Source of the DNA: Diplocarpon mali
Taxonomy: Eukaryota; Ascomycota; Leotiomycetes; Helotiales; Drepanopezizaceae
Length of the DNA: 15,884 nt
NCBI GenBank assembly: GCA_024741835.1
Contig: JAENRP010000525.1
Coordinates: 1 to 15,884, forward strand
Direction: 5' to 3'
The notes beneath the pieces are model-generated. The model searched no databases. It had not been told where the DNA came from and saw only the letters and a program-made list of their open reading frames with translations. Within the stretch, counting starts at the first letter, position 1. Each line of letters begins with the position of its first letter. Position numbers and translations under genes: made by a program. Positions 1-15,884 of this stretch are shown in pieces.

Positions 1-603
1 TATTATCATTTATATAGAGTATAAAATTTTTCGAAACTAAAGTCCTTAAATATCCCTATTACAAATTTACTTAATTGTATCTTTATCTTTAGTATTATTG
101 TAATCTTAAATCTATCGCTATATTAAAGTATTATCTTAATATTAAAGGGAACTTTATAGCACTCTATAAATATAATTATTATACTATTTTCTAGCTTTTC
201 TTTAAGGATATAGTAATCGCCCTTCGATTTCTTATGCTTAATAAAGAAATGCATAATATTATCTATAGAAAATTCGTCTTATTGTAGCTTTATAATTTAT
301 TTAATAGCTCTTGCCATCGCTTCCTATATTAGCAAAACTTCTCCTTGACCTTCCTTTTTCAAACGCTTCATTATTGACTTATAGAATTTTAAAATAAATT
401 TTTGCAGGTCTTTGGAAAAGGTTTATATAATATCGGCTGTATCCTTCTTAGTATTATTAAAAATTTCTATTACATTAGTAATAGGGTTATTCTCTTTATC
501 TATTAGATTATCTTTAGAGTCTATATTATCACATATTCTAACCCGTAGGCCAGGCTTATAAGTCAACTTCTTTACTACTAGTATTCTAAGTGTTATAGAG
601 ACC
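1..603 (-). pseudogene. Copy C: truncated inverted relic of the unrecognised A/B ORF family
   Basis: Read on the minus strand, this stretch aligns to copy B from about 13330 to 13940, roughly three quarters identical by eye. The alignment includes the palindrome at 541-563, which matches the B palindrome at 13374-13396 in place and reading phase. The product is not recognised. The copy runs off the left edge of the window and its upstream third is missing: similarity to B stops near 600. It is broken by TAA/TAG/TGA codons. It is diagnostic for the mutation process because it keeps CAA (plus-strand TTG at 402-404 and 345-347) where B has TAA (13533-13535) and TAG (13590-13592). Those stops in B are therefore former glutamines. 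Orientation is opposite to every other relic here. Confidence 0.85.
541..563. repeat. Dispersed palindrome, copy 1 (inside copy C)
   Basis: On the minus strand it reads with phase Thr-Tyr-Lys-Pro-Gly-Leu-Arg-Val in copy C. It aligns exactly with the B palindrome at 13374, flanked by the same downstream sequence. Arms differ by C/T and G/A transitions. Confidence 0.85.
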
Positions 604-1099
604 TGAGATGGATAGGTCTTGTGATATATATCATATGATCGGCGCAGGCCGGTAGGAGGATAAAAGGGCCACCTTCTATATATAGAGATAGTGCATATCG
701 CTATAGTACTGAATATACCCCATACTTAGGACTTATCCTTAATATCTTATCTAGGAGAGCCTGCTTATAGTGCTTCCTCCTCTTGTTTTTAGGTCTTCCC
801 TTAGGCCTATTCTTATATTATCTCCTCTTTAAGTTTTATATTAGTGATCTATACAAGGACCGATTTCTTAAGATTTCCATTCCTATATGACCTTATCGAT
901 CTCTTAGTTTGTAGACAAGAGACTAGCCTTTAAAATACGTCTTTAAAACACTTATAGCATTTTAATTAACTCTAAAACCCTTATCCTTAATTGCTTAGTT
1001 ACTTAGAACTATTGATTTTCGTTTAGCAACTATTAATAACCTTAGATTTTCCCTTTTTAGCTCTGCTCCGAAAACCCCTATTTTCTTCCTTAACTTTGA
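604..1099. other. Junction between copy C and the gypsy element, with a less mutated island
   Basis: No gene could be supported. From about 604 to 730 the sequence is richer in G+C and in CA/TG dinucleotides than either flank, with runs such as GGCGCAGGCCGG near 641 and an ATCATATGAT palindrome near 630. Similarity to copy B ends at its left edge. From about 740 the sequence becomes pyrimidine-rich on the plus strand, like the leaders before copies A and B. The gag frame can be extended back into this part (an ATG lies at 887), but TGA codons interrupt it at several points, so I did not extend the gene. A 5' LTR or leader would be expected here; no matching direct repeat was found downstream. 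Confidence 0.5.
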
Positions 1100-1512
1100 G
1101 ATTCTCGGAATTTTCGGCTTTTTAATATAAAAAGTTTAATAAACCCTATAATAGCAATCTCAAATAGCGGTAGTTTCGAGTACTTAAGTAATACTAAGCG
1201 CAAACTCTAATAGGAAGTGCCTCTTTAGAATCTTTAGAAATCCGAATCTGATAATTCAGCCGCCTTAGCTTAATAAAACTCTAAAAATTGCCTTAGAATC
1301 GTCTCTAAAGACCCCTTTATTCTAAAGACCAATAGGAATTGGCCTAAAGGCTAAGAAGAATCTTAGATATAAACCTTATCTTAGAAATTGGTCTTAAATT
1401 AGGTAAACCTTATCTTATTGCGATTAGTTGCAACGCTCCTATTAGTTGTTTAATACCTACTTAAAATCTCTTAACAAACTTAGATTAAACTTTTAGTAGA
1501 ATCCGGAATTCT

Positions 1513-1535
1513 ACTCCTAGGCCTAGCCTATAAGT
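1513..1535. repeat. Dispersed palindrome, copy 2 (upstream part of the gag frame)
   Basis: ACTCCTAGGCC arm, then T-centred or A-centred GGCCT-like return arm (here TAGCCTATAAGT). Relative to the gag frame it is in a different phase (Leu-Leu-Leu-Gly-Leu-Ala), 271 bases before ATG 1784. Confidence 0.75.
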
Positions 1536-1608
1536 AAAAGGATAAAAAGATATCTTTAAATAACTTAAGACTACTACCTACTTTTTTAATATCGACGCTT
1601 AAAAATAC

Positions 1609-1623
1609 TAATAATAATAATAA
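1609..1623 (+). repeat. (TAA)5 microsatellite
   Basis: Five TAA units; in the gag frame they read AAT, a poly-Asn run upstream of ATG 1784. Confidence 0.9.
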
Positions 1624-2521
1624 TTTTGAACTTTTTACTAACCCTTTATCTGAATCTTTTTAAACTTATCCTAGTCACTTTAAGATTGACTCGGATTCTG
1701 AACGCTCTTTAAGCCCTTTTAAATCTTAAAGTACTCTTCTTAGCAATCAATCTTATAATATTAAAGCTTCCCCTTTGCCCCTTATGAATTCTATTAACTT
1801 AGACAGTTAGTATAAAACGATAATAGCCGCATTTAAGGCTATTATTAGTCACTTTCCCTTCCTTAGTTCCTTTAGCGCTTCTTACTTTATAAGCGCTAAT
1901 ATTACTAATTTCCTTAAGCAATATAAGGAAACTTATTACGATTTTAGTATTATATAAGAGGATATGATTTCTCGACTTCTTTACTACTATAACTATATAA
2001 GTAAAGATATTATTAAATCCCTCTTTAAATAGAAAACGCATAGTTTATAAGAACTCCTTATTAAGGCTCTTAAGTCTGAATTCTAAGAATTTGATAGATA
2101 GCAGATTCGCAATACCTTAGCTTTCTTAAAGGAATTTGTTCTAATCACTTATACTCTTAAGGAACTTAAAAACTACTATCGGACTTTTACTTATATATTA
2201 AATACCTTGATTAGCTAGAAAATACTTAGCGAAGTTAAAAGAGGCTGCTTTTTCTTACTCAAATTACCTACTAGCCTTTGAAATAAGATTATCAAGCATT
2301 TTAAGATTAATAAGTAAGACCCTATAACCTTTGCCTTATTTAAGGAATTCTTAGCCTTTGCTTTAAAATCAGATCTTAATAAGAGAACTATTAATGCTAT
2401 AGAGTAGGAAAAAGCCCCTACTCTATCCTATACTAAAGACTTTAAGAGCCTGGTCCAAGAACACTCGAAAGCTTTAAAAGTTATAGAAGAGGCAAAGAAG
2501 AACCTAGTAGTCATACCTTTC

Positions 2522-2544
2522 ACTTATAGGCCCGACCTAGGAGT
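2522..2544. repeat. Dispersed palindrome, copy 3 (gag, capsid to zinc-knuckle linker)
   Basis: In the gag frame it encodes Thr-Tyr-Arg-Pro-Asp-Leu-Gly-Val, between the capsid-like region and the zinc knuckle. Confidence 0.8.
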
Positions 2545-2857
2545 AAGATCCAACCTTAGAATTAAGGAACTTAAGACCTAATTTGCAAAACTCCAAATCT
2601 AAAGCTTAGAAACTAAGATTAATAATCTCTTATAAGAAAAATAGCATATTCCTTAGTTTAGTAATAAATAAAACTCAGCTACTATAAGCCAACCTAGTAG
2701 TTCCTATTATCAGACTCCTGCTTCTTATCATTCGGAACAATCAGTTAATATAAGAACGCAATAGCTAGCTAAAGAAGGAGGAATTAATCCCAACTAGCAC
2801 TTTGCCAATATTAATGCTATAGGATACTAAGGAAACGGCAATAGAAGACAACTAACC

Positions 2858-2905
2858 TACAACTTTTGCAATAACGAAGAACCCAACTACGCTCTATATA
2901 AGTAT
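2858..2905 (+). other. Degenerate nucleocapsid zinc knuckle with Cys/His ligands turned to Tyr
   Basis: In the gag frame the codons TAC (2858), TGC (2867), TAC (2888) and TAT (2903) fall at the spacing C-x2-C-x6-H-x4-C. Only the second ligand is still Cys. The other three are Tyr, which TGC to TAC, CAC to TAC and TGT to TAT would produce, all G-to-A or C-to-T in CA/TG context. The knuckle would bind retroelement RNA during packaging. The spacing is slightly longer than the classic C-x2-C-x4-H-x4-C, so the identification rests partly on position after the capsid and partly on the mutation pattern. Confidence 0.55.
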
Positions 2906-3949
2906 CGCAACAATTGCCCTCTTTTCCTTTGTTTTATTAATACTAAGGTTATGCATATTAATAAGTATGGGATGCTTTGTATTAAGGATCCTAGGCTAGA
3001 AGCTATCCCTATTAAAAAGTACCAGAATCGCTTATAGTTATAGACTATTCGAACGATAATATATAATATAAAATAGGACGAGAATTTAATCGAACGATAG
3101 CGTATTATAGATATAAATGCTAAAATCCCAACTTATATATATATAGGTCCAACTAGCAATCTACCTAAGGGAGTTCTTAAGGACTTAGCTTCTAATTAAA
3201 TAGCTATAGAAGTTAAAGGCATCTCTATCTTAAGATAGGTTAATAATAATATTTCAGCTGATATTAATGCTACTTCTATATCTAGGAACCCTTAGAATTC
3301 TTAGCGTCCTTCTAGATCTTCTACTTTACTAATACTAATAAAACTAGCCAAAGTCCAGAAATCAGCGTATATAACTCGGGAATCTTAATATAGAGTCTAA
3401 ATGCTAAAAGACACCTAATAATTTGAAACCGTAGTAAATAAGGATAAAGCTAATATAGTAGACAAATTGATCAGAGATATAATAGATAAAGATGGCTTTA
3501 AGCTCGAAGATTAAGAAGTTGAAGTTATTACGCAGACCCTTGACCTTAAGTAAAAGAGACAGATGTTAAAATAGGAAAAATTCGTCGACAAATACGCTAG
3601 TTCAATTGCAATAGAGAAAGCTATAGAGAATATTATAGCTTAGCAAATTAACCTTACGTTTAAAGACCTATTTGGTTTAATTAAACGCTTTAATAAAGTA
3701 CTAGGAAAGTATATCCTAGTTGCCTTTAAAGATTTGAATAATAATAAGGAAATGGAAATTGTAATGCAAAAGAACTTTAAAAAGCACTTAGCCTTAATCA
3801 AATGTCTTTAGATTATAAAAAATAAAGGAACCTAAAGGTATTATAATATTATAGCAATAGCTTTAATATCTTAGAATATCAATTGAAATTGTTTAGCAGT
3901 TGCGATAAAAAGCCCTATTATTATTTATTTAATAGAAGAATTAGTTAAA

Positions 3950-4215
3950 GCAAAGGCTTTGATCGATTATAGTTTAGAAGTTAATATAATAATTAGAAAA
4001 GTAGCAGAAATGGCTTGATTGACAATTGTTAGCAATCGACTCCTTATTTATTCGACTGTTTTTAGATTAAAATACAATTTTAATAGATAGGTGAAAAACG
4101 TAAAGGTTAGAGTTAGAGGAATTGTTAATTATACTAACTTTCTAATAATAGAGAATTCTTCGAATAATATTCTTTTAAGAATGCCCTTTATTTTAAAATC
4201 TTAGCTAATATTTAA
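3950..4215 (+). other. Retropepsin-like protease domain (degenerate)
   Basis: In the gag frame, LID-YSLEVNI near 3959-3988 matches the active-site region of fungal gypsy proteases (family pattern LID-SGSEVN). The catalytic Asp codon GAT at 3965 is retained but the following Ser/Gly positions are altered. About 60 codons later a hydrophobic ILLRMPFI stretch (about 4161-4185) corresponds to the second conserved motif, normally ILG-x-PF. The domain would cleave the Gag-Pol precursor. It lies in the same frame as gag, so this element encoded Gag-Pro before the change to the pol frame. Confidence 0.65.
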
Positions 4216-4437
4216 CTATCTTAGAGATAGGCTTATAAAAGCTAGCTTTTAAAATATAAATCGATCCTTAGAAGGATAAATAGTTATTATAAGAGATATA
4301 GCCGAATTCTAAAATAAGGTTTTAAGAAACGATTAGCTAGTATAAGGGCTAGGCTTAATACTAGTAAAGGAAGGCACTTAGCAAGGAGTTATAGTAAAAG
4401 AAAGGTAAGTTTATCGATTTTAAATAATAGTGATTTA

Positions 4438-4460
4438 ACTTGCGGTCTTAGACTAAGAGT
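4438..4460. repeat. Dispersed palindrome, copy 4 (protease to RT linker)
   Basis: Arms ACTTGCGGTC... and ...GACTAAGAGT with several transitions. In the later pol frame it reads Thr-Cys-Gly-Leu-Arg-Leu-Arg-Val; in the gag frame it reads out of the usual phase. It lies 162 bases before copy 5. Confidence 0.75.
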
Positions 4461-4599
4461 CAAATTTGGAATTTTGAAAAATGGTACAATTAGCGTTTTA
4501 TTAGCTTAACAATTAAGAAAAAAGAAAAATAAAGTAGAGAAGAGAGTTTGTTTTATAAATTTCGACAATTTACCAATTATTTTGAAAAACCTAAAAACC

Positions 4600-4622
4600 A
4601 CTTATAGGCCGGATCTGCAAGT
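4600..4622. repeat. Dispersed palindrome, copy 5 (protease to RT linker)
   Basis: In the pol frame it encodes Thr-Tyr-Arg-Pro-Asp-Leu-Gln-Val. It marks the earliest point at which I am confident the pol frame is in use. Confidence 0.8.
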
Positions 4623-5100
4623 GAAAAACAATAAAATTACTAATGATATTTCTATCTACGCATTTTAAATTAACAACTTAGAAAATCTTTTATTTATTTT
4701 TAAAAAGGAAAATTCGGATCGTTTTATAGGATTTAATAAAAAAGGAAAGAAGTAGAGAAGTATAGTACTAGCTAATATTCGAACTATATATAAAAGTAAG
4801 GCTAATAAAGTACGACTAGTAGATTAGGGAATCTCTAACAGCTTAAAGCTTAAAGGACTAGATGATTAGTTTGAATAAGATAAGAAGCTTCAACCTTTAA
4901 AGCTAGGTAGCAAATTCGATAAGTTTATTATAAGCAGATTTTCTAATAAACCTATCGGATATCGATTAATAAAAGAACATTTCAATATGCTAAAAATTAG
5001 AGAAGACTTAATAGAGTAAGAATGCGAACTACTTTATAAAACCTTAATAAATCAAAAGGACGCCTTAGCTTTTGACTAAACGGAACTTAGCTAGATTTAA

Positions 5101-5850
5101 AAAGAGGTCACGCCTTATATTAAGATTAAGATAATACCTTATAAAGCCTAATAAGAGAAAACATTCAAGGTCCTTAAAGCTCTTTAAGAAAAGGTAATCG
5201 AAATATTAAAGGATAGGCTAAAGTAAGGTGTTCTCGAGTTTTATAATAGCCTTTATAAGAATAAATAGTTCTTAATTGCTAAGAAGGAAAAGGGAACTTA
5301 TAAACTAATAATAATAGTAGTAGAGATGAACTAAGTAACTATTAAAGATGCTAATATTCCTTTGAATATAGATAAATTCTTAAATGAATTTGTAGGATTA
5401 ACCTGCAGCTCTCTTATTAACTTCTTCTTTAGATATAACTAATTCATTCTTAATATTAAATCGAGAGATATAATAGTAATTCAAACCCCTCTTAGGCTAC
5501 TTTAAATAATAAGATTACCTTAAGAGGCTATAAATTCGATCGCTTAATTTATTTAAGTAATCTATAAGATACTAGTGGATTATATACCTAATATTGCGCT
5601 CTCTTATATAGATAATATAGGAGTAAAAGGATTAAGATCATTCTATAACTATAAAGAAGTTCTCCTTAATATATGATAATTTATAATAGAATATATTTAA
5701 AACTTAGACTAAGTACTTATACAATTCGAAAGGGTAGGAGTAATAGTTGGTCCGAAGTTATAATACTATCTCCTATCGATGGAAATTGTTAGTTTTATTA
5801 CTAATTCTAATAGCCGAAGTCCTTAAAGGGCTAAAGTACTTAAAATCGAC
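5101..5850 (+). other. Reverse transcriptase domain with catalytic Asp-to-Asn changes
   Basis: Recognisable motifs are KALQEKVIEILKDRLKQG near 5170, FLIAKKEKGTYKL near 5269, LPQ-EAINSIAQF near 5515 and YIDN-IGVKG at 5605-5631. The first catalytic Asp, expected in LIDFFSGYD, is AAC (Asn) at 5419-5421, and the neighbouring GYD Asp is AAC at 5437-5439. The active-site YIDD is YIDN, with AAT at 5614-5616. GAT to AAT after T is the minus-strand equivalent of CA to TA. The domain would copy element RNA into DNA; with these changes it cannot, independently of the stop codons. Confidence 0.9.
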
Positions 5851-6084
5851 AAATGGAAGAGGTATAATAATATAGCAGAAGCTTGCGCGTTTATTAAAGT
5901 TATAGTATACTATTGCATTTAGATTAAGGATTTCGCTAAAAAGGCAGCACTTATTTACTCCTTATTTCGGAAAGGGGCTGAGTTTTAGTAGGAGAAACCC
6001 TAAATGGAGGCTATGAAACAATTGAAGCAAGCGTTGCTTAAGGTGCTTTATCTAATTAAAATAGACTATAGAGCTGACGCTAGG

Positions 6085-6470
6085 CCAATTATACTAATAA
6101 TTGACGCAAGCTTAATCAGATAAGGTACTATCCTTTAATAAGCTAATAGCTAATAGAAAAGACATCTAGCTCGCTTTGAAAGTGGTCTTTAGAATCTAGT
6201 AGAGATAAAGTATAATGCTATTAAACGGGAATGCAAAGGCGCCTTAAAGGCAATAAAAAAGATAAGAAGCGACCTTTATAATACTTACTTTATTCTTAAA
6301 ACTGATATTAAAGTGCTAGTAGAACAATTGAATAAAGCTGCAAGCGACCTATTAAGAGCCTTACTAATAAAATAGATTGCTTAAATAAGACTAATGGACT
6401 TTGAAGTTAAATACATTCTAAGAATGAAAAATACTACTACCGATAGCCTTTTAAGAAGAACTTAGCCCTA
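6085..6470 (+). other. RNase H domain with acidic residues apparently spared
   Basis: The domain begins at IILIIDASL (Asp codon GAC at 6103-6105). KRECKG (about 6223-6240) supplies the conserved Glu, LKTDIKVL (about 6298-6320) the second Asp, and KNTTTDSL (about 6427-6450) the last Asp, although the His of the usual H-x-AAD is Asn. RNase H removes the RNA strand during reverse transcription. Unlike RT and integrase, its four acidic positions look unchanged, while nearby TAG/TAA codons still break the frame. Assignment rests on the motif series and its position directly after RT. Confidence 0.85.
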
Positions 6471-6566
6471 CCCCTTTAATTTGATTAAAGAAAATGAAAT
6501 AGATATTAATAAGTAGGTAGAAAACGAAGTTAGTTATCTATTGATATATTGCCTTAAAGGGACTCG

Positions 6567-6589
6567 ACTTGCGAGCCTAGCCTGCGAGT
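6567..6589. repeat. Dispersed palindrome, copy 6 (RNase H to integrase linker)
   Basis: ACTTGCGAGCC, A, GCCTGCGAGT-like return arm. In the pol frame it is read one base out of the common phase (Leu-Ala-Ser-Leu-Ala-Cys-Glu-Ser). The surrounding frame is unbroken. Confidence 0.85.
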
Positions 6590-6779
6590 CAAATAAGAGA
6601 ATTTTATTACCTAACTACTTAAGTGACTTTAAAGAAATTGCGAAGTTTTTAATTACGCTTAAATAACTAAAGATAGTTGCTCTTAAGGATTTTTAAAAAT
6701 TCAAAGCTAAAGCTTTGATTTATCTAATATAAGGAAGACGATTATTTAAAAGGAGCAATAACTTATTTCTTATACAACT

Positions 6780-7720
6780 CTACTTAAATAATGAAAAACT
6801 AAAGGCTAAGGCTATCTAAGATATTTATAAGGAAACTGGCCACTAAAGAGCTAAGTCCACTTACTATTAACTCTTAAGAAAATTCTTTTAAAAAGGCTCT
6901 TTTAAAGACTATAAAGCTTTTATAAAGAGTTGCGTCTCCTATTAGAAATGAAAACCTAATTATAAGGAAAATCCCTTATTCCTAACCTGGCTATTAGGCC
7001 TTTTTTATAAAGTCAGCCTTGATATTATATAAGTATTAACTATTAAGAATAGGATAATATATTTTACTTTAATAAAGGAAGACTTATTAGGATGGCCTAA
7101 AGGACAACCTTTAAGATCTACTAACTCTGAATCTATTATAAAGTTCCTTTAGGAAGACATAGTCTATTACTATAGACTTTTTGGCAAATTAACTATTAAT
7201 AGAGGCCTTGAAAATAAAGGAGTAGTTAAAGCTTTCTTATGAAAATATAATATCAAACGGGTTCAAATCTTAGTATATAACTCGAAAGCTAATAGAATAG
7301 TAGAACAAGGATACTATAACATTTTTAATAGTCTATTTAAAGTTATTTGCAAAGGATTTAAGGATTAGATAAAACGCTTTTATAGAATACTCTTTACTTA
7401 TCGAACGATAATCTATAAACCGACTGAAGTTATACTATTCTTCTTTATCTATAGTAGAGAGGCATAACTCCCTTTTGAATCCTAATAGCCTATTTAGAGA
7501 TTGTTCGACTATAGTCAAATTCGGAACCGTTCCGATTTGCTTATAATAAGATGCCGATAACTTAAGCTCTAAGATATAGATATAGAGGAAATTATTCTAT
7601 AAAAGAAACGATATTAGGAAAAAGCTAAGGAAGCGTAGGCTGCTTTTAAAGTACTTAAAACGCACCCTATTTAAAAAGATAATCTTATCCTAGTCTATAA
7701 TATTATAAAAAATATTAATA
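6780..7720 (+). other. Integrase: zinc-binding region and DDE core (degenerate)
   Basis: The zinc-binding region ends with ETGH (His CAC at 6841-6843) and SCVSY, where Cys TGC at 6931 is kept but the second Cys of C-x2-C is TAT (Tyr) at 6940-6942. The core shows the first Asp in SLDII (GAT 7021-7023), the second as Asn in INRGLENKG (AAT 7198-7200), and the Glu in IVEQG (GAA 7303-7305), with 34 residues between the last two. TGA at 6949 sits where the family has Arg (CGA to TGA). A YRTIIYKPTE stretch near 7399 and a REAQLPFE stretch near 7459 correspond to the gypsy-type core end. Integrase would insert the cDNA into the genome. Confidence 0.88.
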
Positions 7721-8001
7721 TATTAGTAGATACTAAACTTGATTATTAATAGCTTAGTCTATTTAAGGTTAAATTTAAGTAGAAAGATAAAGGATACTAT
7801 TCTCTTTAGGAACTTGATAGAGTCGATATTAAGGGAACCTTTACAGCTAACCGACTAAAGCGCTTTTATTAATACAACTAGACCTTATTCCCTTTAGAAG
7901 ACGAATCAGAAATTGATATAACCTCCGAATCCTTTATAAGAACTAACGGCGATATAAGTAATTTTAAACCCTTAGATAAAGACCAAGATTTTTCTAATTT
8001 G

Positions 8002-8024
8002 ACTTATAAGCCAGTCCTATAAGT
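8002..8024. repeat. Dispersed palindrome, copy 7 (C-terminal tail of pol)
   Basis: Encodes Thr-Tyr-Lys-Pro-Val-Leu-Gln-Val (Gln from TAA) after the integrase C-terminal motif. Confidence 0.8.
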
Positions 8025-8118
8025 GAAGAATATTAAAATACCTAACTAATTGCAACCTTAAGTTATTATTTCTAAAGTATCTAAAGAACGTAAGCGGGAA
8101 TATCGAACGATTTCCTAG

Positions 8119-8418
8119 CCTATTAATTATCTTACCTTCCTTTAATTCTTATTTTTACATTTTTAGCAAGGTCGCCTCCTTTATTATTTAAGATATAGAT
8201 CTTTTAAGATTACTTTAAATTCTTACCTACTCTGACTTATTTTACATTTTTAATATTAGCCTTTAATTATAATATTCCTATTACTTTCCTTAAATAATAA
8301 ATAAAAAGTCCAATTTCCTTAATATATATATAGCAAACCTATTGCAGCTTATATGCCCTTTTAATTCTTATACCCTATTAAACTCTCTTATTTATACTAC
8401 CTATCTTTTATAAGCAAT
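8119..8418 (+). other. Pyrimidine-rich spacer between pol and copy A
   Basis: No gene seen. The plus strand is rich in T and C with tracts such as CTTACCTTCC and TTATTTTTACATTTTT, and ends just before the ATG at 8419. In filamentous fungi such tracts are common in promoters and 5' leaders, so this may be the leader of copy A, the 3' end of the gypsy element, or both. No direct repeat of it was found near 600-1100, which argues against a simple intact LTR. Confidence 0.4.
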
Positions 8419-9264
8419 ATGCCTTTAAAGAACTTATAAATGGTTTTGTCTATTATAATAGGAGATGAATAAGCATTAGTTATAAACTTCTCTTAGGACA
8501 GTAGAGCTATTGCATCATTAGAGAGCTTTAAATCGACCTATATAGCCTTAGGAGATATAGAGTAATAAAAACTCCTTTTAGCTTATGCGAATGCTATTAG
8601 CAACCTTTTAACCTAGGTGGCCCTTAGAATTCTCTAATTTAATGACTTCCTAACTAAAGAATTAAGACTAAAGGGAATCTTTAGAGAGGAATTCTTAGCT
8701 GATGTAGATTAATATATAACCTTAGCTGATACTTTTAAAATAGACTAAGATAAAAGAGAAGAATCTATTTGATAATTAGATAATTTAGCTATTAATAAGA
8801 GAGGACTCCTATTTTATTTGCGCTTTTTAACAAATATTAATTCTAATAATAGAAGATAAGTGTTATTAAAAATTCTTAAGGAAAATACTTCTACCGCTAG
8901 AGCTATTTAGATTCTTAATTTCTTTATTATTTAAGAAGGAGTAGTAAAATTCTAAGGCAATCGAATTCGTAGTCGCAGATTTATAGGCCTATCTAATGCA
9001 GTACTTATAGTAGCTAATAGGGCTATAAAAAGATCAAATTAGGCTATAGATATTACCCTACCTAATAGCACTATTATTAATATGCTAAGGCTCTGCGCTT
9101 CTACTTATAGTTTGCTTATTTTAAAAGAGAACTGGACTCCTATAATAGGATTTAAATGAGATTTCTTTAATAATAAAGAAGGGAATTAGTTATTTATGGT
9201 CAAGCTTGCCTTGAAATTCGCTTTTTAACCTAAAGATATAATAAGTGCTAAATTATATAATTTG

Positions 9265-9287
9265 ACTCGCGGTCTTAGACTAGGAGT
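9265..9287. repeat. Dispersed palindrome, copy 8 (copy A, site 1)
   Basis: Encodes Thr-Arg-Gly-Leu-Arg-Leu-Gly-Val, 846 bases after the A start. It corresponds to copy B site 13188, about 890 bases after the B start. Confidence 0.8.
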
Positions 9288-10650
9288 TAGAAATGAGAAT
9301 TTTAGAACTAGACCCAACTTGCCTTTTGCCGAAATGATTTTAGAAACCGCTATTAAATAAATTGCCCGAACGCTTAGCGCAATCTCTTTGGAATTTTCGG
9401 AATCTTTAAGGGACTCTCCTTTAGCTAAACGACCTATTTTAGCTTAACCTTTAAAAAGGATAGATCGTTCGATAGCTACCTTAGCTAATTTGCAATTTAA
9501 AACCAAAGGATTGCGCGCTCGCTTAAACTCTTTCCTTAATAACTTAAAGGAGCTAGTTCTTGACTTCTTTATATTTATATACAACCGTTTTAAAAACGAT
9601 AATATAAGGGAAGACCTTATTCCTACTGCTTTAGAGACAACTAAGAGAGCTATTAGACAGATTTAATAGCTTATCTTAGACGAGTTCGCTTCTATAGATA
9701 TTATTTAATTCTTTAATAATTATAGAAGTTAAGAACCTAATCTTTTAGATATTAAGCAAGACTATTTTATCTTATAAGAAAGAGAACGTAAAGAGGAATC
9801 TATTGATTAGGATATTTATAATTATAGCAATATGCCTCAATCGGTTATTCTTAACCTTAAGCTTAAAGAACGATATAATATTTAAGTGTCCTTTATAATA
9901 AAGACTCGCTTTCGATAGTATCTTCTTAGCATAGGAATCGAAGGGAGAAGACTTTGCGACTTTTATATTTGCTCTCTTTCGGTTTACTATAGTCTTAATT
10001 ATAAAGGATTTAATATTAACGAAACTATTAAATACTTTAAACTTCTTTATATAGTAGAAGATGTCGATCTTTTTCTAATCCACTTTGATAATTAGTTCTT
10101 TATCTCTTTAAGGATATATAAATCTAACCTATTAATAATAGAGGCATCTTTAGGTGCTATAAAATTCAAGGCTGATCCTAAAGCCTTAAAGGCGTTAGAG
10201 CCGATTGAATGGAATAATTCTTTCTTTTCGATATTATTAAGTAATAAATAGTAAGAGGAAATAGAGGAAGAAGGGTCAATTATAATGCCTAAACCCTTCG
10301 GATGCCGCTTTTTAACTAACAATTTTACTATTAATAATAGTGCTTTTATAAGTATATTCCTCTTTATTATAAGATAAGAAGTAGAGATGTACCTTTATCA
10401 CTTCTGCCCTATAGATAATGCGACCTTTATACCTTCTTATTTTCTTTATAATATGATATTCAGCCTTACTTAATAAGTCCTTTGGATATATTATAGACTC
10501 TACCTCTTAGCTATAATAGCGAAAAGTAAAGGAGCCTATTAGCTTATGACCTACCTCGAACCTTTTTAATTGATTGGCTTTGGTCTTTATAATTAAGTCG
10601 TTTTAATAAAGAGAGATGCAAGTGCTATTAATAAAGAAATTCCAATTTTC

Positions 10651-10673
10651 ACTTGCGGTCCTAGCCTGTAAGT
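10651..10673. repeat. Dispersed palindrome, copy 9 (copy A, site 2)
   Basis: Encodes Thr-Cys-Gly-Pro-Ser-Leu-Gln-Val (Gln from TAA). The flanking protein aligns with B around 14604 (DYQIL versus DYYMIL downstream). Confidence 0.85.
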
Positions 10674-11535
10674 CAATTTTATTAAAAAGCAAGTCTTAGA
10701 TTATTAGATCCTATCGATTAGATAAGGGCCAGCTTTTAAAAGCCTTAATAAGTAGGTCGGCTCTTAGTTGATTGTAAAACTCACTCTATTTATAAAGAAG
10801 ATAAGTCGATAGACTTCTTAGGCACTTAGTTTAAAATCTCAACTAGCTTAAATAATCGCAAAGTTGAAGCGAAAGGAGATTTTGCGACCTATTACTAATA
10901 ATAGCAATCTAATTATAGTAATAATAAAATAGGGATACCTTTTTAAAATGCTTTCGAACAATTCTTATAGGACTAGTAGTTTTATAGCCTTTTGTAATAA
11001 CTATATAGCCGTCCTTAATAAGAATACCTTAGAAAATAAGACTCGAATCTCCGATTTTATCTTTTTAATCTCTACTTTAAAGCAACCTTTAGTACCTTAA
11101 TAGATTAATACAAGTAGAACTACTGCACCTTTTAAGGTAGCTTTTCATCTTAAGAACTGCAGTAGCCTCTTTAAAGCCATTATTAGTCGATACTTTTAAA
11201 TAGATCTATTGGTTATAATCAAAGTATAGGAGTTATTTCTTTTTAATAAAGACGAATTGAAAATCCACTTTATAGAATATAATTAAAAGCTCTTTAATGC
11301 CCTTGTTAAGGCTTAGACGAATGTTATAAATACTGAGTCGCTTCTTTATAGACTTAAGTCTTAGGGATAGCGCGATAAAGTAAATGCTATCTGAGAGCCT
11401 AATGCATTAATTGATAAAGGCATTATTATAAGAAAATTCGGAAAAGAGACGAACTAAGACTCTAGTATAGTATTAGACCTTGATTTAAGAACTAATCCCC
11501 TGTTTTTACCCTTAAGCTTAGAAACGCTAAGACTG

Positions 11536-11558
11536 ACTCGCAAGCCTAGCCTGCGAGT
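11536..11558. repeat. Dispersed palindrome, copy 10 (copy A, site 3)
   Basis: Arms ACTCGCAAGCC and GCCTGCGAGT; encodes Thr-Arg-Lys-Pro-Ser-Leu-Arg-Val in the low-complexity C-terminal part, probably the counterpart of B 15426. Confidence 0.85.
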
Positions 11559-11736
11559 GAGGTTGGACTTAGCTAGCTTAAGCCTATAAGATAGTTCGGA
11601 TGAACCTTAGTCACTAAATCTAGGAGTACTAATAAAAGATCCTTTAAAAGAGGTCCCTAAAGCTGAGAAATCGCCGAGAAATAAAAACTAATATAAGAGA
11701 AGAAGACTTTAAAGTGACGATAGAACTGACAATTGA

Positions 11737-12293
11737 GTCGACTTAAGCCTAGAGAATCGAGTCTACTACCCTTTCCCCTTGAAAACCATTTAAAGAGATT
11801 GCGAATTAGAAGTTGAATTTTTTAAGGATTATCTACTTTCTATATACCTATACCTCTTTATTCTTAACCTATTATTCCATTCTATATATATTCTTTATTT
11901 ACTTTACTTTTTATATAATTCATTCTTTAATTATTCCCTTTATATGCAACTTTCTAATGCTTACCTTTGAAATATCTTCCTTACCTTTGACAATTGTCAT
12001 TTACCAATTATAAGTCCTTATATGCGTTATACCTTACTTTTGTTCCTACTTCTAAGCTTATTATGCCTACTTTTCCTATATGCACTAGTGCGATTTCAAA
12101 CTTTATAAATAAGCCTCTCCTTATACTACAATTTTACTTTTTTTACTTTTTCTATAACCCTACTAGACCTATAATACTAGCACTACTACTATTATCTTTT
12201 ATTATTAATCTTTTCTAGTATAAGCCTTTTGTATCGTTAATCTTTCTTAAATAATTATCTCTTTATTTAGAACTACTCCCTCCTATTAAATAA
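11737..12293 (+). other. Strongly pyrimidine-rich spacer before copy B
   Basis: No gene supported. The plus strand is dominated by T and C over about 450 bases, with tracts such as CTTTATTTACTTTACTTTTT. Short open frames here (11813-12013 and 11994-12218) translate to Phe/Leu/Ile/Tyr-rich, membrane-like peptides only because of this composition. Sharp strand asymmetry next to the start of copy B suggests a fungal promoter or 5' leader. The exact border with copy A is uncertain because its final TGA could itself be a mutated Arg codon. Confidence 0.45.
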
Positions 12294-13187
12294 TTCATTA
12301 TAGTACCACTGAGCTTAAGTAAGAGAGCTATACTTAAGAAGAATATATCAGTTGTGGCTTTGGGTAGCAAACCCTTGAATACTGCTAATAATAAACTAAT
12401 ATTAAAGGGTAACTTTTTATAAGATAGAAAAGCTTTAAGATCATTAGAAGATATAGTAAGCACTTATAGAACGTTAGGTGAAATAGAATAGCAAGTATTC
12501 CTAAACTTATTTATAGAAGTATTGAATTATAGAATTTCTACTATAGAAGAAGGATTTTTAGGCTTTGATGATTTTCTTAAGAATGAGCTTAAGATAAAAG
12601 GGATTAATTATAAAAAATTTCTATAGGAATATTAAGGGTATGCTAATTTAATAGATTTGTTTCGGAAAAATTGAGATAAGAAGAATAAGTATATAAAAAG
12701 ATTGTTGCAGTTTATAAGTAGCACTTATAGTATACTTTTCCAAACCTACTTTATAACTAATATTACTACTAATAACGCCTTGCAAAGGCTTGGCAAAATC
12801 TTTAAGATATACTAACCTATAGCAAAGGCTATATAGGTATTAAATCATTTTACTATTTAAGAAGGTATAAAAAAGCTATAAGGAAATAGTATTAGAGGTA
12901 GAAAATTTGTTAGGTTTTTAAGCATTATTATATACTCTACTATTTAGATTATAAAAGATGAACCCTTATAGTATAATAATTTTATACTTTCCGACCAAAC
13001 TATTTTAGATATACTTAGCCTTTAATAGTTGTAATATAGTTTACTTATTATAAAAGAAAAGATGACTTATCTTATTAAGTATACTATAAATTACTTTAAT
13101 AATAAGTTAGAGAGATAGGAGTTTGCTATCCTTATTACTTTAAAAATGCTACTACCCTTAGTAGGAATAATTGATAAGGAGAATTTG

Positions 13188-13210
13188 ACTTATAGGCCTG
13201 GCCTATAAGT
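13188..13210. repeat. Dispersed palindrome, copy 11 (copy B, site 1), perfect
   Basis: A perfect inverted repeat with 11-bp arms around one central T; arm ACTTATAGGCC. Encodes Thr-Tyr-Arg-Pro-Gly-Leu-Gln-Val. Confidence 0.9.
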
Positions 13211-13373
13211 AGAATTAGCATATAAGAAGAATGTCCTTAAGCCGGAGGTGCTTATAACACTAGGAACTTAAGCAGCTAACCTGCCTGACTACTATTCCTT
13301 TGACTTAGACGAATTTGAGTTACTATCCTTAGAAATGCCTTAAACACCTTGAATACTAGTAGTAAAGAAAATG

Positions 13374-13396
13374 ACTCATAGGCCTGGCCTATAGGT
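13374..13396. repeat. Dispersed palindrome, copy 12 (copy B, extra site shared with copy C)
   Basis: Encodes Thr-His-Arg-Pro-Gly-Leu-Gln-Val-like residues, 186 bases after copy 11. Present at the same place in C (541-563); the aligned part of copy A has none. Confidence 0.9.
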
Positions 13397-14603
13397 TAAT
13401 ATATATAATATTATAGACTTAGAAGATGAATTGTCTAATAAAGAAATAGGCACTATTACTAATATGCTAGAAATTTTTAGTAATATTAAGAAGGATACTA
13501 CTAATATTATACAATCTTTCCCTAATAACCTGTAAAAATTTGTTCTCAAATTCTATAAGTTAATAATAAAGCGTTTAAGAGAAGAAGGTTAGGGAGAAGT
13601 CTTATTAGCATAAGAAGGGATAATAAGAGCTATTAAGCAGATTATGAAACTGCTATAAGATAAATTTTCTATAGATAATATTATACAGTTCTTTATTAAG
13701 TATAAGAAATTGAAGGGTGACTTCTATATTCTTAAGGAGAAATCCGAAGTTAATATGAATATCATTTCTATAGAATGTTATTAGGTCCCTCTTAATATAA
13801 AGATAATACTATAGTATAGCAATAGTTTTAAGATAATAGTAATACTAGAAATGAAGATAAGACTTGCAAAGTTTATAATAGGAATATTTAGGGACTTCAA
13901 TTTTGAAAAGTTCTACGCCCTTTATAAACGCTAATATACGCAGTACTATAGATTGGTAACGATAGGCCTTACTAATGAAGATATATTGTCTAATATTTAC
14001 AAATTTTACACTACTTTTAACCCGACCTTATTTTTATTGCATTTAGGAAATTATATAATTGTAGCTACTGGCAATAGAATGGCAAGCCAAGTTAAGAAGG
14101 ATATGTCGTTAGGCTTCTTTAAGTTTAGAGTAGCACTTAAAGCCCTTAAATTATTTTATAATATTATATGGACCCTTGCCTAGTATAATGCTATACTAAC
14201 TATTGATAACTTTATATCATTCTATAGCAAAGGCTTTTTAAATATGCCTAAGTTATTTAGCTGCGCCTTTTTAGGCACTATACGCACGTATAGTTATGGT
14301 AATTGTAGAAAGAATTCATTTTTAATATTAGTATAAGAAGAATTAAAAATGTACTAATACTACTTCTGGACCTTAGATAAGAAGCCAAACCCCCCCTTTG
14401 CCTACCTTTATAATATGACTTATAGCTTAATATAATAGATACTAAGGATATATTATAGATTATACCTAAGTGCTCTGCTGACTTAATATAAGTCTTTATA
14501 CAAACTAGTAATATATCTTAAGCTTGCATAGTTTATTAGAATTGACTACCACTCGAGAGTTATTACTACTAAGATTAATACTAATATAAGATTTGTAAGA
14601 TTG

Positions 14604-14626
14604 ACTCCTAGGCCTAGCTCGCGGGT
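14604..14626. repeat. Dispersed palindrome, copy 13 (copy B, site 2)
   Basis: Encodes Thr-Pro-Arg-Pro-Ser-Ser-Arg-Val; positional counterpart of A 10651. The right arm is the more diverged one. Confidence 0.8.
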
Positions 14627-15425
14627 TAATCTACTTAATAATAGAACTATTGACTACTATATGATTTTAGCAGCTAAACAATCGACTAGAGAATTCGCTA
14701 TTTGGGAAAAATCCTATAAATTATTAAATCTTATACCTTAACGCTTTAAGAATGCTTAGTGGATCTTACTAAATCTGGCTCGAAATGCAGTATAATAGAA
14801 AGAATTAAATACTAGAGAGAAGACACTTCTAAAGGAGTATATCTCTAATAAGACGACTCCGTTCTCTATATTTATTAAATAAGGTACATTTATTAATATA
14901 GAATCTGCTAAAGAACTAGGAAAAGGTGGCTTTCTTACTATTAGTAACAACTATATAGAAGTTGTTAGCAATGACTCACTAGAGAATAGCATAGACTTAG
15001 AAGATTTTCTTATTAATTCTATTAGTATAAAGAGACCTAGCACTACGAGATAGAGTATTACTAAAGAATCGTTAGCCAAATTTCGTATAACGCTTAGTAT
15101 AATAAAAGGAGGCCTACTATTAGAGGTACTTATAGGGAAACGGCTATAGAACGATCTATTAGTAGTAATAATAGTAAAGGAGTTATTCTCTAAAGATGTG
15201 ACTCAGTTGATAATATATTTAAAGAAGTATAAGTAGGAACTTTTTAATAATTTTACCTATACTTAAAAGCTGATTTAATAGTTGAAGCTATAACTATATA
15301 GGGATAAGTCCTAGACTAAGACAAAAGGCATTAATAATAATATTAAGGCTAATAATATAATTAATAAGACGATCCTTCTTGAAAAGTATAGCACTAAGAA
15401 ACCTTATGCTAAACCCTCTAATACA

Positions 15426-15448
15426 ACTCCTAGGCCTGGCCTGCAACT
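15426..15448. repeat. Dispersed palindrome, copy 14 (copy B, site 3)
   Basis: Encodes Thr-Pro-Arg-Pro-Gly-Leu-Gln-Leu (Gln codon CAA intact) in the low-complexity C-terminal region. Confidence 0.85.
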
Positions 15449-15529
15449 TATATCAACCAAAGGCAAAGAAAAGGAAGTATTATCTATTAAATTGCCTGCT
15501 TCATCTCCCTCTGCAGTAGAAGACTCTTT

Positions 15530-15570
15530 AAAGGATGATAATAATAATAAAAAGGATGATAATAATAATA
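15530..15570 (+). repeat. Tandem 21-bp duplication encoding Asp/Asn-rich heptads
   Basis: AAAGGATGATAATAATAATA occurs at 15530-15549 and again at 15551-15570, period 21 bases. In the B frame this gives two Lys-Asp-Asp-Asn-Asn-Asn-type heptads. Asn here may derive from Asp (GAT to AAT after T), so the ancestral tract may have been acidic. Confidence 0.9.
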
Positions 15571-15773
15571 CTATAATACAAGTCTCCCTTCCTATTAGCA
15601 GAAGCCGTCAAACTATACTAGCATCTTTATAAAATACTAAAGCTCTTATAATACTAAGACTGGACTCTTCTAATACTAATAGTGAACTATTAAAAAGAAG
15701 TAGGCGCTCTATAAAGAGAGTATTATCTAGTAATGGTTCTCCTTATCTCCTAAAGAGAACTAAGGAAAATTAA

Positions 15774-15884
15774 TATCTAGGTTAGTACTATTTTTAATTG
15801 TTTTTACAACTCTATAGCTATTTGTTTATTTTACTAATTTCGTTTTCTAACGCCTAGGCCCGGCCTATAGGTGAAAAGTGTATA
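15774..15884. other. Downstream flank of copy B
   Basis: No gene. T-rich sequence, then a dispersed palindrome (15850) outside the B frame, up to the window edge. Confidence 0.5.
15850..15872. repeat. Dispersed palindrome, copy 15 (intergenic, after copy B)
   Basis: Arms ACGCCTAGGCC and GGCCTATAGGT around a central C. It is the only clear copy lying outside a recognisable ORF, 77 bases after the B stop. Confidence 0.85.

Follow-up and report, generated by a model that had tools for sequence, protein, structure and literature searches.

A coding-compatible 23-bp palindrome in gypsy and copia retrotransposons of Diplocarpon mali, a possible site for a dimeric DNA-binding protein

Results

The window analyzed here, the whole 15,884-nucleotide stretch of contig JAENRP010000525.1 (C525) from the 49.4-Mb, 676-contig assembly of the fungus Diplocarpon mali, is made up largely of one decayed Ty3/gypsy retrotransposon, which we call gypsy-1, and carries 15 copies of a 23-bp palindrome that recurs in other retrotransposon families of the same genome. 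Gypsy-1 (593..15884, + strand) is at least 15.3 kb long and stop-ridden, with a 5′ long terminal repeat (LTR) from 593 and a 3′ end that lies off the contig; positions 593-594 are also where the match starts in most other gypsy-1 copies. Its pol region includes an RNase H domain (6082..6333, + strand; Pfam PF17917, E 6.7e-10) and an integrase H2C2 zinc-binding domain (6790..6957, + strand; Pfam PF17921, E 4.2e-06). The element is made long by two open reading frames (ORFs) of ~1,100 residues downstream of pol (8437-15773), ORF A (8437..11760, + strand, ends approximate) and ORF B (12303..15773, + strand, start approximate). The LTR is preceded by a truncated ORF-B-like fragment in inverted orientation (196..592, − strand), for which blast gives 78-84% matches over about 196-598.

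The palindromes are spread over this whole structure. The copy at 541..563 lies in the inverted fragment, and its flanks match the reverse complement of the site at 13374, of which it is the counterpart. Within gypsy-1, a copy at 1513..1535 is 5′ of gag and apparently non-coding, its phase being stop-rich there; the next, at 2522..2544, is in gag, in a frame taken from stop density. Two copies, 4438..4460 and 4600..4622, were placed by eye upstream of the reverse transcriptase, 6567..6589 falls in the linker between RNase H and integrase and is the sole in-ORF site out of phase, and 8002..8024 is near the 3′ end of pol, where the frame is ambiguous. ORF A has three sites (9265..9287, 10651..10673, and 11536..11558) and ORF B has four (13188..13210, 13374..13396, 14604..14626, and 15426..15448). 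Sites 9265 and 10651 are homologous to 13188 and 14604, respectively, 11536 aligns with 15426 in two of three alignments, and no counterpart of 13374 was seen in ORF A. The last copy, 15850..15872, lies in 3′ untranslated sequence, 76 nt after the ORF B stop, and is found also in L014, L018, L024, and L027. Twelve of the 14 gypsy-1 sites are thus inside ORFs, 8002 less surely than the others. The order and spacing of the sites, from 6567 or 8002 to 15850, are repeated in L018 and L014.

All 15 positions listed in the original prediction, which was made from the window alone, do carry the repeat. A symmetric matrix, itself derived from those 15 copies, finds 15 sites of at least 18 bits and 16 of at least 10 bits in the window, whereas 200 dinucleotide shuffles give a mean of 0.3 sites of at least 10 bits and a top score of 18.2; the lowest-scoring listed copy, 4438, reaches 21.5 bits. 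In the genome search that had been proposed, ACTYRYAGGCCNGGCCTRYRAGT with up to three mismatches yields 4,420 matches against one for the reversed pattern, and a GC-rich version yields 505 against none for its control. Background-level counts and confinement to a single duplicated element had been named as the outcomes that would count against a repeat family; the counts are far above control, and the copies extend beyond one duplicated element (see below).

The description of the repeat held in part. The 11-bp arm originally proposed fits some of the set, but positions 4-7 and 8-10 vary (ACTCCTAGG, ACTTGCGGT, ACTCGCAAG), and its pairing with a reverse-complement arm is an approximate symmetry, with 5 to 11 of 11 positions exactly complementary and all 11 only at 13188. 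Of the TTG/CAA extensions, the T at −2 is present in 25 of 30 half-sites and the base at −1 is mixed. Differences between copies are mostly transitions, as had been noted, yet transversions are present, chiefly at pairs 5/19 and 9/15. The hosts, thought to be unrelated, are not so in the window, where 14 of 15 copies belong to one long element and 541 to the inverted ORF B fragment; elsewhere in the genome they are, as at least two further LTR-retrotransposon families, a gypsy and a copia, carry the site.

In the second gypsy family (gypsy-2), the site follows RNase H and precedes a sub-threshold integrase match, and this linker holds one, two, or four in-frame 45-nt palindrome units depending on the copy (L036, L038-L041, L047). 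The copia family has a site in the interval from gag to the Pol_BBD domain (L031 carries two units and L033 one, a 54-nt difference), a three-unit 48-nt array after the integrase SH3-like domain (L025; L108), and, downstream of the reverse transcriptase and RNase H segment, a single site (L024:8022) that is probably beyond pol; the Pfam matches for Pol_BBD in L033 and SH3 in L108 are under the curated cut-off, and those in L031 and L025 are above it. We considered two separate copia families and rejected them because the three locations just listed are collinear, and on the same strand, on contig C152. A single duplicated host element was likewise rejected, given the copia and gypsy-2 sites. 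Units of 39, 45, 48, and 54 nt occur in tandem, each an integral number of codons (13, 15, 16, and 18 residues). Palindromes were also found in L004, L028, and L034, and other gypsy bodies lack the site, with a top score of 10.8 in L026. Exact-match searches of prokaryote genome contigs with the GC-rich form and of viral contigs with the degenerate form returned no stretches, and a plasmid search with window positions 8001-15884 returned no match. Two ten-unit arrays of a diverged palindrome, L005:43-512 and L016:9320-9789, have spacings of mostly 39 or 48 nt and can be read as, for example, TLKLGLQV.

When A/B homologues and tandem arrays are collapsed, a single reading phase is common to 11 of 12 coding positions (p = 4.7e-5), the exception being 6567; the frames at 2522 and 8002 in this count come from stop density and are less sure, that at 8002 least. 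By eye, the other two phases of the GC-rich pattern are also open over the 23 bases, and the single phase is therefore not forced by stops alone. The encoded peptide can be read in stop-free relatives of the two ORFs, which in the searches made come from Diplocarpon coronariae only: P0005 for ORF A (68% identical over 99%) and P0001-P0004 for ORF B (55-67% identical). A and B are themselves paralogues, with 323 identities over 1,141 aligned columns for the decayed copy (counting X matches) and 36-38% identity between the intact proteins. At the palindromes, the intact relatives have the consensus (T/S)-(R/P)-(G/E)-P-G-(P/S)-(R/Q/G)-(V/L), with the readings TRGPGPRV, SRGPGPRV, TPGPGSRV, TPGPGPQL, TPGPGPRL, and TRGPGPGV; P0005 has TREPGPRV at the place of 11536, and the third B site is absent from P0004, where it falls inside a larger gap. 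A 2A-like reading of GPGP was considered and dropped because the Asn required for it is absent.

The sites lie in a particular kind of DNA. Eighteen regions of 10 kb were sampled at rough spacing on contigs C1 (13) and C4 (5); L018 and L024, picked for known palindrome matches, were excluded from the count. Palindromes occur in three of these regions (13, 9, and 9 sites), each AT-rich, with a GC content of 0.38 or less, and with a signature like that of repeat-induced point mutation (RIP). None occurs in the 15 regions with a GC content of at least 0.43, a small sample that is presumably gene-rich, its genes being unannotated. The motif is thus concentrated in the element and scarce outside it, with palindromes carried by the AT-rich, element-like samples alone. 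Because the site-rich regions show the RIP signature (TA raised, CA/TG depleted), AT-rich arms are best read as decayed copies, and the reading of the intact proteins at the palindromes likewise points to an originally GC-rich, ACTCGCGGGCCNGGCCCGCGAGT-like site that has decayed by mutation.

Constraint was examined in 37 representative sites picked from 136 matches in 49 flank clusters, with three of the ten L005 units and no L016 units among them. In purine (R)/pyrimidine (Y) classes, which are blind to RIP transitions, pairs 1/23, 3/21, 4/20, 6/18, 7/17, 8/16, and 11/13 are invariant. Freedom is seen at 5/19, 9/15, and the center, with deviants at 10/14 in three sites and at 2/22 in two. Pair 5/19 is the most variable, being Y/Y in 17 sites, R/R in seven, R/Y in 13, and Y/R in none (about three expected); it is mispaired in 24 of 37, and the 13 complementary cases are fewer than in shuffles (p = 0.0066). 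Pair 9/15 covaries weakly (28 complementary versus 23.9 in shuffles, p = 0.077), with T-A replacing G-C in four sites. Over all pairs, arm complementarity is 369 of 407 against a shuffle mean of 371, that is, without excess. Because complementarity is no higher than in shuffles and 5/19 is mispaired, the stem is not the feature that is preserved. Two half-sites that tolerate change at two positions fit these data better.

Silent positions behave in a similar way. Among 20 coding sites in the common phase, the third base is always C or T in codons 1 and 2 and always A or G in codons 6 and 7 (20/20 for each), a mirror image, and it varies in codons 3, 4, 5, and 8. Outside the palindromes, C/T-ending codons make up 24-29% of Arg codons and 60-66% of Pro codons in A and B. 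Despite the low identity of A and B, the pairs 9265/13188 and 10651/14604 were aligned in both A-B alignments made. Over all codon positions, a comparison that mixes peptide and DNA constraint, the purine/pyrimidine class matches between A and B at 63 of 72 positions inside palindromes versus 2,110 of 3,036 outside (p = 0.0004).

The original prediction had suggested looking for empty orthologous sites and target duplications. Neither was seen among the copies compared, in which only the number of tandem units changes. Site 6567 is kept in 22 of 22 copies (20 of 40 listed matches, the window, and L018), and 13188 and 13374 are both kept in 12 of 12, although 11 of these 12 derive from the palindrome search or are the window itself, and only L014 comes from the grid. 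For sites 6567 to 15850, the comparison covered two to 22 copies and found no empty site, many of the copies having been chosen through the palindrome; 1513, 2522, 4438, and 4600, with a single copy of each, are outside this comparison. In L018, the counterpart of 8002 is badly decayed (8.6 bits). Present-day mobility is thus without support in this limited test. Site 13374 faces a ten-residue gap in A, which could be the trace of one old insertion, in a linker too variable for proof. At 6567 and its homologues (L048-L067, L018), the left arm is of either a GAG or a GGT type despite near-identical flanks, hinting at exchange between palindromes.

Discussion

We favor the view that the palindrome is a coding-compatible 23-bp dyad site for a putative dimeric DNA-binding protein, present in several families of LTR retrotransposons, and would give this reading a probability of about 0.45. 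A protein dimer would recognize the dyad, which can at the same time be translated as a short linker peptide. Binding would benefit the elements, most simply through expression or anti-silencing, as VANC does for the plant VANDAL elements, and the role of binder could fall to a host factor or to a gypsy-1 ORF A/B protein on which other elements draw in trans. Spread of the site may have begun with rare insertion or template exchange and continued by local (tandem) duplication; insertion followed by tandem duplication is probably the route. This reading is supported by the purine/pyrimidine constraint, the mirror-image third bases, and the retention of palindromes between A and B, as well as by non-coding copies of the motif at either end of gypsy-1 (upstream of gag and after the ORF B stop) and a host range that spans Ty3/gypsy and Ty1/copia. 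A bolder version, in which an ORF A or B protein recognizes a 23-bp dyad operator that both superfamilies carry in coding linkers and element ends, so that the product of one element would shield a guild of unrelated elements from host silencing or activate them in spite of it, is suggested by analogy and seems unlikely. Of the three possibilities left open in the original prediction (a mobile mini-element, a recognition site, or a recombination relic), recognition by a protein fits best, and the proposed spread over unrelated hosts is supported.

Several observations weigh against the binding-site interpretation. The binder is so far putative, and the structure models of the B and A relatives, with mean pLDDT (predicted local distance difference test) values of 31 and 30, are unusable. 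Binding alone would not predict so strong a phase bias. Positions 593-1138, taken as the LTR, contain no palindrome, though a plain promoter operator would be expected there. The 37 sites were chosen by us and are non-independent, and common ancestry could explain part of their invariance. The comparison of A and B third positions at identical residues is a weak test (matches at 14/18 inside versus 107/201 outside, p = 0.037), and the deficit of transversion columns in ORF B copies, which were partly picked by palindrome, is a modest effect (1/46 in the palindrome versus 78/654 outside, p = 0.024). Site 6567 leans, if at all, the other way, its palindrome varying at 2/23 and its flanks at 4/301 (p = 0.06).

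The phase bias is accounted for by what we rank as the chief rival, a mobile protein-coding palindromic mini-element like those of Rickettsia, which would insert in frame into unstructured parts of genes and have no function for the host element. It would also explain why one motif recurs in the linkers of unrelated families and why 13374 stands against a gap in ORF A. We nevertheless consider it rather unlikely, because no empty orthologous site was found among the copies compared (partly palindrome-picked), the arms are so often non-complementary at 5/19, the presumably gene-rich grid samples contain none, and at least two positions appear to predate the A/B duplication. The same bias would follow if the peptide TRGPGPRV were itself selected, for example as a cleavage, docking, or flexible linker motif, with the DNA symmetry as a by-product; the peptide is kept in the intact A and B proteins within otherwise variable linkers, and the tandem units are all whole codons. 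Selection on the peptide would not, however, fix the third bases of four codons in mirror fashion, place copies upstream of gag and beyond the ORF B stop, or leave one coding copy (6567) out of phase, and arrays spaced at 61-66 nt, whose host element is not identified, would break the phase; we regard this explanation as improbable.

Two further explanations were weighed. A purely historical one holds that shared ancestry and exchange between co-expressed retrotransposons suffice, the palindrome being a neutral relic copied by template switching. The arm variants at 6567, of GAG and GGT types, do resemble those of other sites, but the excess change there is not significant, and constraint at silent positions and retention across the A/B divergence are not expected of a relic, so that this account has little to commend it. 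The other, that a nucleic acid hairpin or cruciform is selected, for RNA dimerization, packaging, or translation, for example, draws on the dyad symmetry, the GC-rich arms, and the replacement of G-C by T-A at 9/15. We find it very improbable, since 5/19 is mispaired more often than in shuffles and complementarity overall is at the level of chance; a structured RNA element was rejected because no compensatory stem change exists beyond the weak 9/15 trend and no Rfam match was found at gathering scores.

The family can be set beside several known ones. Yeast mitochondrial GC clusters are short GC-rich palindromic elements in AT-rich DNA; unlike these, the palindromes here lie in retrotransposon DNA whose AT-richness is RIP-like. 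Protein-coding palindromes have already been described in bacteria and archaea, and, like those of Rickettsia, Wolbachia, and Methanocaldococcus, our family is a short palindromic repeat found in frame in unstructured parts of unrelated coding sequences (PMC10969869, PMC2996958), here those of gypsy-1, gypsy-2, and one copia family, with the same 11 of 12 collapsed positions in frame. The Rickettsia elements, however, are about 150 bp long and lie in metabolic genes (PMC10969869), in contrast to 23 bp, fungal retrotransposons, and copies that are non-coding as well. PARCEL repeats share coding location, dyad symmetry, tandem arrays, and a partial link to mobile elements, but they encode a 25-residue amphipathic motif with varying palindromes (PMC2996958), whereas here one 23-mer encodes an eight-residue Gly/Pro-rich peptide, in units of 13, 15, 16, or 18 residues. 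The VANDAL elements of Arabidopsis have accumulated a short motif, partly through tandem repeats of variable unit number as here, and an element-encoded protein binds that motif (PMC5735166). In VANDAL21, however, it is a 9-nt motif, mainly non-coding and rare in other elements (PMC5735166); ours is a 23-bp dyad, mostly coding (in 12 of 14 gypsy-1 sites), and shared by gypsy and copia. Bacterial REP sequences are also high-copy palindromes, of 20-40 bp (PMC3733652), but they are extragenic and prokaryotic, and the present sites are inside transposon genes of a fungus. Among the literature matches listed, from a search whose coverage leaves out most subscription papers, no title or abstract opening deals with such palindromes in fungal retrotransposons, and “palindrom” is absent from the main text of the Diplocarpon coronariae genome paper (PMC11527701). 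That elements of both the Ty3/gypsy and the Ty1/copia type share one DNA site, and one under constraint at silent positions, points to a dependence of unrelated transposons on one putative binding factor.

Additional features of gypsy-1

Database searches say little about the proteins of the element. A search with a piece of pol returned distant gypsy polyproteins alone (19-22% identical), pieces of ORF A from the window have no Pfam match, and ORF B matches no Pfam family above cut-off. In the genome, a 366-residue piece of ORF B has 488 candidate matches, of which 112 were scored.

Some palindromes lie close to the ends of elements. LTR junctions are 29 bp (window) and 17 bp (L029) from a palindrome for gypsy-1 and 10 bp (L041) for another LTR. 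Targeting of integration to the palindromes was considered and rejected: a palindrome lies within about 200 bp of only one (at 63 bp) of 39 other gypsy-1 LTR flanks, which are partly non-independent in that one flank is common to three of them and two come after a partial LTR copy. At the 3′ end, the window contig stops 12 bases beyond palindrome 15850, and runs of N, that is, assembly gaps, lie within about 25 bases of the corresponding palindrome in L014, L024, L018, and L027.

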